Assembly: GCA_017962545.1 (NCBI GenBank)
Contig: JAGCVD010000022.1
Location: 21,075 to 85,074, forward strand
DNA: 64,000 nt
Reading direction: 5' to 3'
Source of the DNA: Bacteroidales bacterium
GTDB taxonomy: Bacteria > Bacteroidota > Bacteroidia > Bacteroidales > P3
Shown here: in pieces, positions 7,550 to 12,205 of the stretch
How the letters are laid out: each line of letters starts with the position of its first letter
Numbering within the stretch: the first letter of the stretch is position 1
Made by a program: the position numbers and the translations under genes
Notes under the pieces: model-generated
Told to the model about the DNA's origin: nothing
Database searches by the model: none
What the model saw: the letters and a program-made list of their open reading frames with translations, nothing else

Positions 7550-8272
7550 CTATTTCTTCATTTTAGGACGGACTTTGTGGTATTCGGTATTTCCTTCCCT
7601 ATCCCAACCTTGAATGAAAAACCAACCGTCCGCACCCCAGAATGAGTCGCCACACGGCCACCATCGCGGTGGTGTTTTGTAGACATACGGCTTGCCGAGC
7701 TTGTCCGATGTGCAATCATAAGGGTAGATATAAACAATACCCTCCGCTCCTTCAAAAGGGGCGTCCCAATAAATGACATCTGTAAAATAACTGGCCAATA
7801 AGTTATCCGTTGACAAAGACATCCTGCAAGTCTCTATACGTGTTGTATCGTTGTGTGTATGTGTGCAACAGTAATCTCCCGCGGCAAGCTCAACGATGTG
7901 CCCACAACCCTCAAAGTCGTAAAAGCCACACTCTTCCATGCAATCTTCATAATCGAATCCTATTTCTTTGGCCCATTTGCGAACGATGGCAGAATCTTTT
8001 TTATCGGGAGTGCGCTCGGAGCGTATCCTTTGGTATTGTTCCTTGACCCGTGAGGCCGCATCGAATGTGGCCTCACTTATCCTCACGTCCTCCCACACTA
8101 TCCCGTTTTGCGTCACCTCAACTGCCTGTTCCTCAAAGGCCGTATCCATAAGATGGATGGTGTCCGTGATGCGGGTAGTGTCCTCTTCGACTCCGGTGTT
8201 ATTGGCATTCATGCAGGCGGTCATCATTCCGAAGGCGCACACCATCGCGCCGAGCAAAAAGAGTTTCTTCAT
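7550..8272 (-). CDS. Hypothetical cysteine-rich lipoprotein
   Basis: 240 residues. A type II signal peptide ends in GMMTAC (Cys about residue 20). The mature part begins with a low-complexity Thr/Asp/Glu stretch and contains several paired cysteines (YEDCMEECGFYDFEGC, GDYCCTHTH), then a Trp-rich C-terminal half (PPRWWPCGDSFWGADGWFF). The cysteines suggest disulfides in the periplasm or on the surface. It is the last gene of a minus-strand run behind alaX, 12 bp after it. I do not recognise the family. Confidence 0.7.
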   Translation of the reverse strand: MKKLFLLGAMVCAFGMMTACMNANNTGVEEDTTRITDTIHLMDTAFEEQAVEVTQNGIVWEDVRISEATFDAASRVKEQYQRIRSERTPDKKDSAIVRKWAKEIGFDYEDCMEECGFYDFEGCGHIVELAAGDYCCTHTHNDTTRIETCRMSLSTDNLLASYFTDVIYWDAPFEGAEGIVYIYPYDCTSDKLGKPYVYKTPPRWWPCGDSFWGADGWFFIQGWDREGNTEYHKVRPKMKK

Positions 8273-8284
8273 TTCGTTGTAGTT

Positions 8285-8761
8285 TTAGTTTATCTCTTCC
8301 AACTTGAAGCGCATTCGCCAGGTGTGGGTGTCAGCGTTATAATCGTGGGAGAGAATTTTGAAGCGACCGATTTCGGAGGTGTTGTGGACGTGGGTGCCGA
8401 CGCAGGCGCAGAGGTCGTAGCCGCCGATGCGGACGAGGCGTAGAGTCTCGGAAGCATCGTCGGGAAGCTTCCAGAGGTCCACCTCGGGCGGCACCTCTCC
8501 CCTCTTCACAAACTCGTAGCTGACGGGCAAGTTCTGCGCAATCACCTCGTTGACGCGGCGCTCTATCTCCGCCACCTGCTCCTCGGTGGGGCAGGCATCG
8601 AGCAGGTAGTCGCACTTGCTCTTCTTGCGCTCGATATGCGCGTTGCGCGACCGCGGACAGCCAAACATCCGCACCATCGTCTGGTTCAAGATATGCTCCG
8701 CCGTATGCATGCGAGGGTCTTCCTGCTTATGATGCTCATTAAGAATTGGTTGTTGTTCCAT
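8285..8761 (-). CDS. AlaX-type trans-editing protein (AlaRS/ThrRS second additional domain)
   Basis: 158 residues, a free-standing editing domain that hydrolyses mischarged tRNA (Ser- or Gly-tRNA-Ala in known members). The two metal-binding motifs are present: HTAEH (His19 and His23) and CVGTH (Cys120 and His124), followed by NTSEIGRFKILSHD as in the AlaRS editing domain. The first 18 residues form a short lead before the first motif. Copies of this 5' region precede two lipoprotein ORFs just upstream. The gene is 18 bp after one of them, so co-transcription is likely. Confidence 0.85.
   Translation of the reverse strand: MEQQPILNEHHKQEDPRMHTAEHILNQTMVRMFGCPRSRNAHIERKKSKCDYLLDACPTEEQVAEIERRVNEVIAQNLPVSYEFVKRGEVPPEVDLWKLPDDASETLRLVRIGGYDLCACVGTHVHNTSEIGRFKILSHDYNADTHTWRMRFKLEEIN
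8672..8761 (-). repeat. alaX 5' segment, parental copy of a three-copy repeat
   Basis: Codons 1-30 of alaX. This segment, including the start codon and the MHT codons, is repeated at 9212-9298 and 9874-9954. Confidence 0.75.
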
Positions 8762-8779
8762 GATTATTAGTTGTATTTG

Positions 8780-9298
8780 TTATTGGTTGTATTCTACAAT
8801 ACTCCAAAGACTATGGACAATTAGGTAACCATCAGCCCTTGCTTCTTTCTCGTAACATAATGGATTCCCTTCTCTCCAGTGGTAACTTATGTTGGCATCA
8901 GAACGTTCAGGACGGAAATAATCTGGTTTTTCACCTAATATATGGAGTGTGTCGCCCGACACTTTGAAGAAAATTGGTTTGTATAAGATTGCAATATTGG
9001 CAGTGGTATCCCACAGTTCAGAGTGCTTGTTTGTAGTTGAAAGAAAAAGTTCATCATGATCATTATCTCTGAAATATACAGTCGTCTTTCCACCTGAACT
9101 ATTGCCTACTGTGATTGGTTTGACTTTTACCGTGATGTTATCAATACATGATGTTAATCCCAATATGGATGTTAGGACGATTAAATCTGTAACGCATCTT
9201 CTTATTACCATTTTCGTTAAGGGTGTGTTCAATCCGCCTGTATGCATCGGCGGGTACTCTTCTTTGTTATGAGCATTAAGCATCGGTTCTTGTTCCAT
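8780..9298 (-). CDS. Hypothetical lipoprotein ORF fused behind a copy of the alaX start
   Basis: Read from 9298, the protein begins MEQEPMLNAHNKEEYPPMHT, nearly the alaX N-terminus, and then turns into a lipoprotein signal peptide (VLTSILGLTSC). An internal ATG at 9211 (MVIRRCVTDL) gives a normal N-terminal signal peptide and is probably the native start; the upstream 29 codons are then a transplanted leader. The mature part of about 120 residues has no recognised domain and is richer in A/T than alaX. It lies 14 bp after the next lipoprotein gene and 18 bp before alaX. Confidence 0.6.
   Translation of the reverse strand: MEQEPMLNAHNKEEYPPMHTGGLNTPLTKMVIRRCVTDLIVLTSILGLTSCIDNITVKVKPITVGNSSGGKTTVYFRDNDHDELFLSTTNKHSELWDTTANIAILYKPIFFKVSGDTLHILGEKPDYFRPERSDANISYHWREGNPLCYEKEARADGYLIVHSLWSIVEYNQ
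9212..9298 (-). repeat. alaX 5' segment, second copy
   Basis: 29 codons that match alaX codons 1-20 closely and the 9874-9954 copy over nearly the whole length, including the shared tail TTG-ac-ACACCCTTA. The reading frame is kept and joins the lipoprotein frame. Confidence 0.8.
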
Positions 9299-9312
9299 AT
9301 CTGTTTAGTATA

Positions 9313-9954
9313 TTATTCAGCCATAGTTCCATTGTACATTCCCACCAACTTCCCCTCTTCAAAGAAATATATCACACCCCAATATGGCATTTGGTTTCCA
9401 AGAGAGAGTTGCTGATCATTTGAGTATTCGGCATTGATAACCCCATGATATTGTTGTTCTAATCTCTCTCGGTCGTCGCCAATGCTTATTGAATGACTCA
9501 TTTGGCATTCCGTCGGTCCTGTAACAGCTATTCCATCCACAGAAAGGGCCAGTCTTGACTTAGCCACCTCTGCAGAATCCCCGTAAACATCAATCCTCAC
9601 ATTCTTTTTCTGATAGAACCAAGACTGGTGAAGTGCTCCGTCAAATTCCAAGACCACTGCCTCCGATAACGAATCAGGATTACCCCAGCACTCAATCACT
9701 TTTCTGATTGAAATATATGGAGTAAGCCAACCGTCAATGGTGTCTTGAAGAAAAGCAGAGTCAACAATATCTGATACTGTAACAGAATCCCCATTGTCCG
9801 CCTGTGGTTGTTGGCAACCAGCAAGGCTCATCAGGAACAATGCCATTATAAAAAAGCCTATCTTCAATTTGTTTTTTAAGGGTGTGTCCAATCTTCCCGT
9901 ATGCATCGACGGGAACTGCTGCTTGTTATGCTCGTTGAGAATCGGTGTTTCCAT
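9313..9954 (-). CDS. Hypothetical lipoprotein ORF fused to a second copy of the alaX start
   Basis: 213 residues from 9954. The first 27 (METPILNEHNKQQFPSMHT...) copy the alaX leader; then comes a lipoprotein signal peptide (LKNKLKIGFFIMALF, MSLAGC). There is no ATG at the expected native start: the codon before KNKLKIG is TTA, so translation needs the alaX-derived ATG, or a TTG at codon 31. The mature part (about 160 residues) includes a short Ser/Asp-rich stretch and no catalytic motif. It is more AT-rich than alaX. It is first in the minus-strand run. Confidence 0.6.
   Translation of the reverse strand: METPILNEHNKQQFPSMHTGRLDTPLKNKLKIGFFIMALFLMSLAGCQQPQADNGDSVTVSDIVDSAFLQDTIDGWLTPYISIRKVIECWGNPDSLSEAVVLEFDGALHQSWFYQKKNVRIDVYGDSAEVAKSRLALSVDGIAVTGPTECQMSHSISIGDDRERLEQQYHGVINAEYSNDQQLSLGNQMPYWGVIYFFEEGKLVGMYNGTMAE
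9874..9954 (-). repeat. alaX 5' segment, third copy
   Basis: 27 codons, aligned to the 9212-9298 copy with one 3-bp in-frame deletion. It carries start codon, LNEHNK and MHTG codons. Confidence 0.8.
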
Positions 9955-10101
9955 GTTGATATAACGTAAGATAATGGAAATTATTTTGCCCTGTTGCTCC
10001 AGTTGGATATCTTCTGCGTTTCAGCGACCGACTGCGCCTACTCCACCTGCTATTGGAAAAGAAAAACTGATTTTCTTTTCGCTCGGTTTAAGAAACTTTC
10101 G

Positions 10102-10109
10102 TATCTTTG
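10102..10109 (+). promoter_or_regulatory. Bacteroidota -7 box (TATCTTTG) for the M13 peptidase gene
   Basis: TATCTTTGC lies 38 bp before the ATG at 10148. A T-rich stretch sits where the -33 element belongs, but without a clean TTTG. The 146 bp between the alaX run and this box show nothing else. Confidence 0.65.
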
Positions 10110-10147
10110 CATTTTGTTTTGGAAACAATTATTAATAACAAAATAAC

Positions 10148-12205
10148 ATGAAGAAAACCCTTTTAAGCATTGCTACTATGGCAGTTATCGCTACCGGTTG
10201 TCAGCACAAGGCCCAGCTCACGTCGGGCATCAATTTGGACAACTTTGACACCACCGTCCGTCTGGAGGACGATTTCTACCAGTACGCCTGCGGCGGCTGG
10301 ATGGCTAACAACCCCCTCGACGCCGAGCATTCGCGCTACGGTGCCTTCGACGTGCTGGCCGAGAACGCGCTGAAGAATGTCAATGACATCATCGACTCCG
10401 TCAGCAAGAATGAGAACGAGGCTGGCTCGCTGGCCGACAAGATTGCCATGCTCTACAACATCGGCATGGACAGCGTCCGTCTGCAGGAGCAGGGTGCCGC
10501 CCCGCTGATGCCCTACCTTGAGGAAGTCAATGCCATCAAGACCAACGCCGAAGTCTGGAACGCCCTGCTCAAGTTACACCACATGGGTGTCCCTGTGCTG
10601 TTCGGTATTTTCGGTGAGGCCGACAAGGACGATGCCAACATGTGCATCGCTTGGGCCTACCAGAGTGGCCTCGGTCTCGGCGACCGCGACTACTACCTCC
10701 TTGACGAGGGCAACAACAAGAACATCCGCGCCGGCTACGTCGCCTTGATGACCAAAGAGTTTGCCATGGCTGGCTATGACAAGATGAGCGGCAAGAGAGC
10801 CGACAAACTGGCTCAGACCGTCATGACTTTCGAGACCCGTCTGGCCAAAGCCATGAACACCAAGCTCCAGAACCGTGACCCGCAGGCCACCTTCAACCGC
10901 TACACCGTGGAAGAGGCTGCCGCCTTCGCCCCCAACATCGACTGGAAAGGCTACTTCCAGACCATGGGTATCCTCGATGGCATGAAGAGCTTCAACATCG
11001 CCCAACCCAACTACTTTGCTGAAGTCAACAAAGTGCTGACCGACACCGACGTCGAGACCCTCAAGGCCTACTATGCCTGGCAGATCATCAACGCTTTCGC
11101 CAGCTACCTGAGCGATGACTTTATCAACACCAACTTTGAGTTCTACGGCAAGCTGCTCAGCGGCCGTGAGCAGAACCGTCCCCGTTGGAAACGCGTCACC
11201 TCGACCGTTGAAGGCGCCATGGGCGAGGCCCTCGGCCAGCTCTATGTCGAGAAATATTTCCCCGCCGAGGCCAAGACCCGCATGGAGACCCTCGTGCAGA
11301 ACCTCATCACCGCCCTCGGCCAACGCATCGACATGGCTGAATGGATGACCGACGCCACCAAGGCCAACGCTCACAAGAAACTTTCCACCATCTATGTCAA
11401 GATTGGTTATCCCAACAAATGGCGCGACTACAGCGGTCTTGAAATCAAGGACGACAGCTATCTGGCCAACATTGTGCGCAGCAACATATTCGACATGGAC
11501 TATATGTTCAGCAAGATCAACAAGCCCGTCGACAAGGACGAGTGGCTGATGACTCCGCAGACTGTCAACGCCTACTACAACCCCACCACCAACGAGATTT
11601 GCTTCCCCGCCGCCATCCTGCAGCCGCCGTTCTTCAACATGGAGGCTGACGAGGCCGCCAACTACGGTGCCATCGGCGTGGTCATCGGCCACGAACTGAC
11701 CCACGGCTTCGATGACCAGGGCCGTCAATATGACGAGAACGGCAACCTGAACGACTGGTGGACTGAAGATGACGCCAAGAACTTTGACGCCAACAAGCAG
11801 ACCCTCATCGAGGCCTTCAACAACTGCATCGCCCTCGACGACCCCGAGCTCGGTCTGATGCACGGCAATGGTGAGCTGACCCTCGGTGAGAACATCGCCG
11901 ACAACGGCGGTCTCCACGTGAGCTACCTCGCCATGCAGAACGCCATGGCCAAGAAGCAGGTCAACAAGGAGCAGATGGACGGCTTCACCCCCGAGCAGCG
12001 CTTCTTCCTGGCCTACGCCGCTGTGTGGGCTTCGAACATCCGTCCCGCCGCTGCCCTGCAGCTCACCCAGATGGATGTGCACTCGCTGGGCCGCAACCGC
12101 GTCAACGTGGCCCTGCCGCAAGTGACGGAGTTCATCGACGCCTTCGGCATCAAGGAAGGCGACGGCATGTGGCTCGCCCCCGAGAAACGTGTGGTGCTCT
12201 GGTAA
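10148..12205 (+). CDS. M13 family zinc metallopeptidase (neprilysin/PepO-like), lipoprotein
   Basis: 685 residues, the normal family length. A lipoprotein signal peptide (VIATGC) anchors it in the envelope. The zinc site is complete: HELTH (His515, Glu516, His519) and the third ligand in GENIAD (Glu581). The upstream NAYYNPTTNEICFPA strand that binds substrate backbone is also present. The N-terminal DDFYQYACGGWM begins the peptidase_M13_N domain. It cleaves oligopeptides in the periplasm or at the surface. A strong -7 box precedes it, and the next gene starts 3 bp after the stop. Confidence 0.93.
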   Translation: MKKTLLSIATMAVIATGCQHKAQLTSGINLDNFDTTVRLEDDFYQYACGGWMANNPLDAEHSRYGAFDVLAENALKNVNDIIDSVSKNENEAGSLADKIAMLYNIGMDSVRLQEQGAAPLMPYLEEVNAIKTNAEVWNALLKLHHMGVPVLFGIFGEADKDDANMCIAWAYQSGLGLGDRDYYLLDEGNNKNIRAGYVALMTKEFAMAGYDKMSGKRADKLAQTVMTFETRLAKAMNTKLQNRDPQATFNRYTVEEAAAFAPNIDWKGYFQTMGILDGMKSFNIAQPNYFAEVNKVLTDTDVETLKAYYAWQIINAFASYLSDDFINTNFEFYGKLLSGREQNRPRWKRVTSTVEGAMGEALGQLYVEKYFPAEAKTRMETLVQNLITALGQRIDMAEWMTDATKANAHKKLSTIYVKIGYPNKWRDYSGLEIKDDSYLANIVRSNIFDMDYMFSKINKPVDKDEWLMTPQTVNAYYNPTTNEICFPAAILQPPFFNMEADEAANYGAIGVVIGHELTHGFDDQGRQYDENGNLNDWWTEDDAKNFDANKQTLIEAFNNCIALDDPELGLMHGNGELTLGENIADNGGLHVSYLAMQNAMAKKQVNKEQMDGFTPEQRFFLAYAAVWASNIRPAAALQLTQMDVHSLGRNRVNVALPQVTEFIDAFGIKEGDGMWLAPEKRVVLW

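Follow-up and report, generated by a model that had tools for sequence, protein, structure and literature searches.

A probable gene-cassette array anchored at the start of alaX in Bacteroidales

Here we describe a row of three adjacent minus-strand open reading frames (ORFs) in a 64,000-nucleotide (nt) stretch of a Bacteroidales genome (assembly GCA_017962545.1, contig JAGCVD010000022.1, positions 21,075 to 85,074; hereafter the window). The last ORF of the row is alaX, which encodes an alanyl-tRNA editing protein; the two ahead of it encode lipoproteins, LP1 and LP2, and each begins with a version of the alaX start, called the leader below. The row is probably an alaX-anchored gene-cassette array, in which the repeated start would provide a start codon, a reading frame and homology for recombination. 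Sequence comparison shows such arrays, their tie to alaX, the sharing of cargo genes between species, the switching of leaders relative to cargos, the fusion in frame, and purifying selection on the cargo. In the following, L-numbers denote loci or stretches, G-numbers genomes, and C-numbers contigs. The features of the window locus are as follows.

8285..8761, minus strand: alaX, encoding an alanyl-tRNA editing protein; intact, and anchoring the array at its 3' end (Pfam tRNA_SAD, NCBIfam AlaXM)
8702..8761, minus strand: leader copy 3, alaX codons 1-20 (sequence comparison)
8780..9298, minus strand: cassette 2, composed of leader, linker and lipoprotein LP1 (blastn cluster 3, 7 loci)
9239..9298, minus strand: leader copy 2, codons 1-20 of the LP1 ORF (DNA alignment)
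9218..9238, minus strand: linker GGLNTPL (DNA GGCGGATTGAACACACCCTTA), which alaX does not have (junction comparison, motif search)
9313..9954, minus strand: cassette 1, composed of leader, linker and lipoprotein LP2 (cargo recurs in other genomes)
9898..9954, minus strand: leader copy 1, 19 codons, of the METPILNEHNKQ type (sequence comparison)
9877..9897, minus strand: linker GRLDTPL (junction comparison)
9955..10147, minus strand: probable alaX upstream region of native type, now preceding cassette 1 (upstream-motif comparison)
10148-12205, strand divergent from the array: gene for what we take to be an M13-type peptidase
7550-8272, minus strand: lipoprotein gene directly after alaX, with a second conserved type of start (start segment 8213-8272)

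The ORFs start with MEQQPILNEHHKQEDPRMHT (alaX), MEQEPMLNAHNKEEYPPMHT (LP1), and METPILNEHNKQQFPSMHT (LP2); LP2 and LP1 are 14 nt apart, and LP1 and alaX 18 nt. Over 59 nt of DNA, the two lipoprotein leaders match the alaX leader with 75% and 64% identity, and the LP1 and LP2 leaders are 79% identical to one another over 71 nt. With the alaX leader as query, the LP1 start was matched with E = 4e-6 and the LP2 start with E = 3e-5 (among 37 sequences). A leader model that had the LP2 peptide among its rows found three strong places in the window genome, all at this locus; the fourth match had E = 1.2. The relatedness of the three starts, proposed in an earlier note made from the sequence alone, is thereby confirmed. 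The part shared with alaX comprises only 19-20 codons, up to MHT, and not the 27-30 codons that the note had given; the next seven codons (GGLNTPL or GRLDTPL) are common to LP1 and LP2 and missing from alaX. The note was correct on the internal starts, as LP1 has an ATG at codon 30 and LP2 has none between leader and hydrophobic core, and on the higher AT content of the cargo (GC 0.37 for LP1 and 0.43 for LP2, versus a mean of 0.56 for the alaX bodies of 39 array loci).

The window alaX matched Pfam tRNA_SAD (PF07973) with 3.9e-13, above the cut-off, and NCBIfam AlaXM with 3.2e-24, under the curated cut-off of that model. It contains HTAEH, an HxxxH motif that we take to be the catalytic motif of alaX. 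LP1 and LP2 had no Pfam family at E ≤ 1; in a search of both against Pfam and NCBIfam, LP1 gave nothing and LP2 a single match far under the cut-off. The second half of the alaX leader, KQEDPRMHT, resembles the EEPRMHS or EDPRMHS of cassette-free relatives, and its first half, MEQQP, resembles leaders of the cassette type; compared by eye with L037, L040, and L044, it reads as a hybrid. Leader copy 2 recurs in L038 at the end of an LP2 cassette, where it is the start of alaX itself. The sequence before leader copy 1 resembles that before some cassette-free alaX (cgttatatcaac, e.g., L044 and L045).

These arrays occur in gut and rumen Bacteroidales and reach far beyond the single window. A first look covered 61 genomes; an alaX alignment was also run against GTDB contigs, and the best 80 of 572 confirmed matches were used; the loci from these scans were searched with a leader profile, and a genus-wide search of 120 genomes plus fetched stretches followed. 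In the genus search, 89 of the 120 genomes matched the leader at E ≤ 0.01, for the most part through alaX. After deduplication, 135 leader-bearing loci were available, 82 with alaX alone and 53 with at least one leader-headed ORF other than alaX (L122 and L154, both among the 53, are the same contig). Each array has one to seven leader-headed ORFs (hybrid leaders, which match twice in one ORF, were counted once), always upstream of alaX and on its strand. Relatives with zero, one, or more such ORFs are what the earlier note had proposed to look for. Leader matches of at least 14 bits numbered 235 on the array strand and 0 on the opposite strand, and none was located downstream of alaX. The view that the leader is native to alaX held up: it was present in 121 alaX copies, and 82 of these stand in cassette-free loci. 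In the loci read, leaders heading other genes were always upstream of alaX or on truncated contigs, save for two decayed remnants (in G103 and G065). The full leader is not universal among alaX homologs, and four more distant ones (L023-L026) diverge before MHT, an outcome that the earlier note had named as arguing against an alaX origin.

The alaX gene is present in 39 of the 53 array loci; of the 14 others, 11 break off no more than 700 nt past the last leader, and in L160 alaX is interrupted by Ns. Of 38 array or alaX stretches, 10 have a leader within 300 nt of a contig end, a hint of variation or of collapsed repeats. Carriers beyond metagenome-assembled genomes (MAGs) include Odoribacter laneus YIT 12061 (L061), with a leader-headed GNAT ORF. 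Beyond the genus, G408 and G496 have leader-headed RhuM-Fic ORFs ahead of alaX. Comparable RhuM-Fic ORFs were found in L076, L091, and L116, from MAGs bearing the name Bacteroidaceae or Bacteroidales, and an acyltransferase in L073. In an order-wide sample, 49 of 393 genomes had a leader match at E ≤ 1e-6, most with the match ending where alaX ends. In O. laneus (L061, 9300-9460), a truncated alaX remnant is located upstream of the leader-GNAT cassette and the intact alaX; it looks as if a block of leader, cassette, and alaX had been added beside an older alaX.

At the MHT His codon, the DNA reads CCGCCG-ATGCAT-ACGGCGGAGCAT in alaX and CCGCCG-ATGCAT-ACGGGAGGATTGRACACAYCCTTAA in the cassettes; across 88 cassette and 121 alaX junctions, conservation of the ACACA-CC core is about 85%. 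The exact CCGCCG..CGGCGG, where alaX codes for PPMHTA, was found in 22 of 28 cassette-bearing genus-like sequences, 17 of 43 cassette-free ones, and 5 of 28 others. A synonymous constraint over codons -12 to +3 was considered and dropped: there was no excess compared to the rest of alaX (0.082 for both), and only single codons stand out. The seven-codon linker recurs at the DNA level in cassettes elsewhere, including ones with unrelated cargos. Its motif had 16 matches in 14 of the 120 genus genomes, all 16 at leader positions, versus 1 for a reversed-pattern control; no other anchor gene for the linker was found among these 16 matches. From a cassette stop to the next leader there are 0-20 nt in 40 of 74 gaps, 21-130 nt in 15, and more in 19.

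Among 81 complete leader ORFs, 67 run for at least 100 amino acids (aa) in frame and 14 are shorter; 9 further ones are cut off. Five of the short ORFs belong to a 40-aa type, four of which are followed by an ORF of 277-278 aa; one stands ahead of a gene that we take to encode a DUF1016-like nuclease, and one is the alaX interrupted by Ns. In all five loci found to have the DUF1016-like C-terminal motif (L050, L031, L032, L062, and L184), this motif begins 44 nt before the next leader. Long hybrid leaders, in which a stretch like HNLAESESRANPICFAEPKQGHELNAHNK lies between two partial copies, are found ahead of alaX or of cassettes in L032, L150, L152, L164, L165, L057, L154, L249, and L251.

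The cargo is not confined to lipoproteins, as the earlier note had it, but also includes membrane proteins, leucine-rich repeat (LRR) proteins, RhuM-Fic and GNAT proteins, and an acyltransferase. The 85 cassettes (88 before the duplicate stretch L122 was removed) fell into 32 clusters under a blastn rule, some of which are one short type split; 23 clusters have a member of at least 100 aa, and the largest is present in nine loci. Within the 55 residues after the linker start, 19 of these 23 families have a hydrophobic segment, and 8 of the 19 have a crude lipobox match; with mostly hydrophobic cargo starts, the leader could leave together with the signal peptide. The same cargo, often with more than 90% DNA identity, is found in different species with differing leaders and next genes. 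The LP2 cargo recurs with 91-96% protein identity in four other genomes and as contig-end fragments in two more; in the genus search, it was present in 7 of the 120 genomes and adjoined a leader in all 7. A cargo named KYWW was present in 10 of the 120, and in nine it adjoins a leader copy or alaX start (the tenth is G034). Relatives of RhuM-Fic were present in 78 of the 120, mostly at sites without a leader match, so that cargo can come from ordinary genome content. Median dN/dS values were between 0.12 and 0.53 in 12 of 13 cargo clusters, and the thirteenth had 1.42, a value resting on dS below 0.02; given these low values, the cargos look to be maintained as working proteins under purifying selection. 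Carriage of leader and cargo on mobile elements was considered and rejected. Viral-contig scans, run with LP1, with the TYWG cargo, and with the leader alignment, yielded no confirmed relative, and the LITRT cargo as query gave no match in phages. Among plasmids, the TYWG cargo gave 72 records, all below 60% identity, and the five shown are LRR proteins.

Comparisons between loci point to exchange at the leader. After the LP2 cassette comes alaX in L038 and LP1 in the window, and the leader that begins this next gene is the same in both up to CCGATGCA. In three genomes, the LITRT cassette ends in an identical leader up to CCGATGCA, beyond which each genome has a different gene. L045 has no cassette and L167 has one; their identity is 98% across the 1.5 kb upstream and on through the leader, until L167 departs from L045 at CCCATGCACAC and there turns into the cassette. 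L062 and L186 resemble each other on either flank (95% and 90%), and a DUF1016-like unit is present in L062. The alaX of L167 and that of L006 have a leader that is unlike that of the first ORF and is joined to the cassette end; the same is true for L038. Switch points were mapped between pairs with the same cargo at 90% DNA identity or more, in nt from the MHT His codon; the pairs are not independent of one another. For 56 pairs, the 5' switch was located at -17 to +9 in 32 and at +22 to +29 in 11; for 26 pairs, the 3' switch was located at 0 to +10 in 6 and at -25 in 3. A strict site-specific junction was not upheld by this mapping. Leaders are more similar within arrays than between them (0.747 versus 0.709, a difference reached by 0 of 500 label shuffles). 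Because the switches scatter and the leaders of an array resemble one another, homologous exchange and conversion fit better than one cut site.

The recombinase content of carriers varies. The window genome (81% complete) has two PF00589 tyrosine recombinases of 306 and 305 aa, which by reading appear XerD/XerC-like, on contigs C34 and C2; the array is on C3, and PF00239 resolvases number 0. G021, a cassette carrier of 98% completeness, likewise has two PF00589 matches and 0 resolvases; G104, with seven leader ORFs, has three and 0. By eye, no transposase or integrase was recognized in the array gaps (no profile scan was made). In at least three carriers (G102:C33, G009:C2, and G129:C2), the array contig also has a PF00589 match, at a distance of 25-36 kb from the leaders.

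In the cassette-array reading, a cassette is an imported ORF that in most cases lacks a start it could use and is placed in frame behind about 20 alaX codons and the seven-codon linker. Cassettes stand head to tail on the alaX strand, often less than 20 nt apart, with alaX closing the row. New ones would arrive on DNA carrying leader, cargo, and leader, and a crossover within the leader would leave alaX readable with a working start. Because each cassette begins with and precedes a copy of the alaX start, recombination from start to start could insert, remove, and reorder cassettes and swap them between cells and species while the frames are kept. Most likely, the cell's general machinery for homologous recombination does this, acting on repeats of 60-90 nt, since carriers can be without a recognizable dedicated site-specific recombinase. 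We infer RecA-type recombination, expression from the alaX promoter with the leader supplying the start codon, and removal of the leader; it would be cut off with the signal peptide or left in the cytoplasm, with most cargo exported or membrane-bound. Exported cargo would put up with the extra N-terminal residues. The cargo may serve envelope functions, possibly defense in bacterial competition.

Several findings weigh against this reading. The alaX bodies of L045 and L167 are only 89-91% identical and their downstream regions are unrelated, from which it follows that a larger exchange took place; no compared pair isolates one clean insertion. The 5' switch was located at -33 or beyond in 12 of the 56 pairs and at the window edge in 1. 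On the 3' side, the switch was at -37 or beyond (at or before the start of the next leader) in 12 of the 26 pairs, and 5 had none, so the next leader often stays behind when cargo moves. The two decayed leader remnants, L180 (G103) and L181 (G065), are isolated, have no alaX, and lie away from contig ends, and the last leader ORF is more than 300 nt from alaX in seven array loci. Units carrying genes with their own ATG exist. Of 38 arrays, 7 have CGTTAYW, presumed to be the native promoter motif, ahead of the first leader; it precedes alaX in 4 of 39 arrays and occurs in 7 of 77 cassette-free loci. At this low frequency, the motif marks a subset only. Some carriers are richer in recombinases (G115 with five PF00589 matches and 0 resolvases, G121 with two and four, and G022 with three and two), and most genomes examined are MAGs.

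Other explanations assign the array to a different process. In an integron-like system, a recombinase, perhaps acting in trans, or XerC/D themselves would cut within the alaX start at CCGCCG-ATGCATA-CGGCGG, where two inverted arms flank a spacer of 7 nt, and cassettes would integrate as circles. The clustering of 5' switches around ATGCAT agrees with this, as do the higher frequency of the exact repeat in cassette-bearing than in cassette-free alaX and the PP and TAE synonymous positions, which are more uniform than codon usage predicts. However, switches also occur within the leader (-25, and -33 to -42) and the linker, and -17 to +9 is the most conserved stretch, so that homologous exchange would favor the same place. 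Several later alaX codons are equally uniform, loci that share cassettes are not independent, and neither G021 nor the window genome has a PF00239 resolvase, with two PF00589 matches each; we regard this explanation as unlikely. The earlier note had favored repeated insertion of an element into the alaX start, with a long target duplication each time. That units were added repeatedly and alaX stayed intact is borne out; simple insertion with duplication is not, and we consider it very improbable. Some genomes with few cassettes do have near-identical leaders before the cassette and before alaX: in L234, the two are identical over the 36 nt shown, L232 has one mismatch, and L036 and L085 are alike in this respect. 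However, the leader copies differ in most multi-leader loci shown, identical cargo carries different leaders in different species, and the switch points are spread across both leader and linker. At times a cargo takes along the leader of the gene after it, some cargo has a foreign leader on its 3' side, unrelated cargos have the linker in common, and the array gaps, read by eye, contained no recognizable transposase or integrase.

Serial duplication of alaX, followed by decay and chance gene fusion without any mobile system, would account for the truncated remnant upstream of the O. laneus cassette; yet a search for alaX remnants upstream of alaX yielded this locus alone, and cargo of at least 90% DNA identity sits in genomes with other leaders and neighbors, which makes this origin extremely improbable. 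A further proposal concerns function and is compatible with the cassette-array reading: the row would be a store of orphan immunity or defense genes, like rAID arrays, to which the alaX leader is incidental. The genes are short, diverse, co-oriented, and mostly envelope-directed, and they recur in gut and rumen Bacteroidales; rAID arrays are described in the same taxonomic order (PMC12247911). Against it, no family named as immunity was among the Pfam matches of 20 cargo ORFs of relatives; the LRR, RhuM-Fic, GNAT, and acyltransferase cargos are atypical; and the contig of the window array is without a recombinase. We view such a store as possible but doubtful.

The lipoprotein gene directly after alaX begins with a second conserved type of start. 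Its start segment, MKKLFLLGAMVCALGMMTAC, is the start of a lipoprotein signal peptide and is conserved at the DNA level. Starts of this type were found in 38 of the 120 genus genomes, with at least 57 matches listed and 0 for a reversed control. In the stretches read, they head differing cargos, some of which are common to different species; tandem clusters are present in G088:C12, G025:C141, G007:C4, G104:C9, and G067:C197, and at least one start is an in-frame hybrid (L268, 1059). The spacer ahead of some of these genes (L258, L266, and L270) has ATTGAACATACCC, similar to the alaX-cassette linker ATTGAACACACCC. There is about an even chance that arrays in this genus are built without an integrase, with a gene's coding start serving as a common plug, which offers homology for landing, a start codon, and a frame, and with at least two unrelated plugs in use. 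If true, this platform would capture genes without an integrase of its own, and a housekeeping start would act as docking site, promoter access, and frame setter for foreign genes. Exchange could work across species with similar alaX starts, and the circulation of envelope genes among rumen and gut Bacteroidales without recognized mobile elements would be explained. The cargo would be mostly exported because the added N-terminus can be discarded, and recombination across 60-90 nt of coding homology is predicted.

In the open-licence literature, judged by titles and the starts of abstracts, we found no description of such arrays. They lack a defining feature, among those tested, of each of four known kinds of system: integrons, rAID arrays, integrative elements at gene 5' ends, and orphan arrays of contact-dependent inhibition (CDI) and Rhs systems. 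Integrons are rows of co-oriented, exchangeable single genes at a fixed chromosomal site, with an integrase and a 3' attC. The alaX arrays share with them the row of co-oriented, exchangeable single genes at one chromosomal site, across species. In contrast, no adjacent integrase was found at the window array (G021, the more complete genome, has its two PF00589 matches genome-wide), and the repeat is an in-frame 5' coding start instead of a 3' attC (no search for attC structures was made).

PMC12247911 describes rAID arrays in gut Bacteroidales with a predicted tyrosine recombinase, intergenic motifs, and short genes of about 100-300 codons. Co-oriented short genes are also found here; however, no tyrosine recombinase heads the array or lies elsewhere on the window array contig, and the repeat is coding and mostly in frame, unlike the conserved intergenic motifs described there. 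Among integrative elements, those of dusA and SXT at prfC insert at the 5' end of their host gene and restore its start (PMC8409611); dusA encodes a tRNA-modifying enzyme, and the dusA elements tabulated there are 23-37 kb long with an integrase, a directionality factor, and a 21-bp repeat. As with these elements, the host gene here is given a new N-terminus in frame and stays readable (L167, L006, and L038). The alaX units differ in being single genes in stacks of up to seven, with the cargo itself fused to the host-gene start; the window units are single lipoprotein ORFs, and no internal integrase was seen by eye in other gaps. The orphan cdiA-CT/cdiI and rhs-CT modules are tandem, many with a fragment homologous to one full-length gene; homologous recombination between the fragments is proposed, and integrase and transposase genes often lie between modules (PMC4927057). 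Tandem units with repeated homologous heads are common to both. In the modules described there, the repeat is toxin-derived, the fragment belongs to the swapped toxin, and the cargo is toxin and immunity genes, whereas in the arrays described here the repeat is the start of an unrelated tRNA-editing gene and supplies the start codon for cargo of other families.

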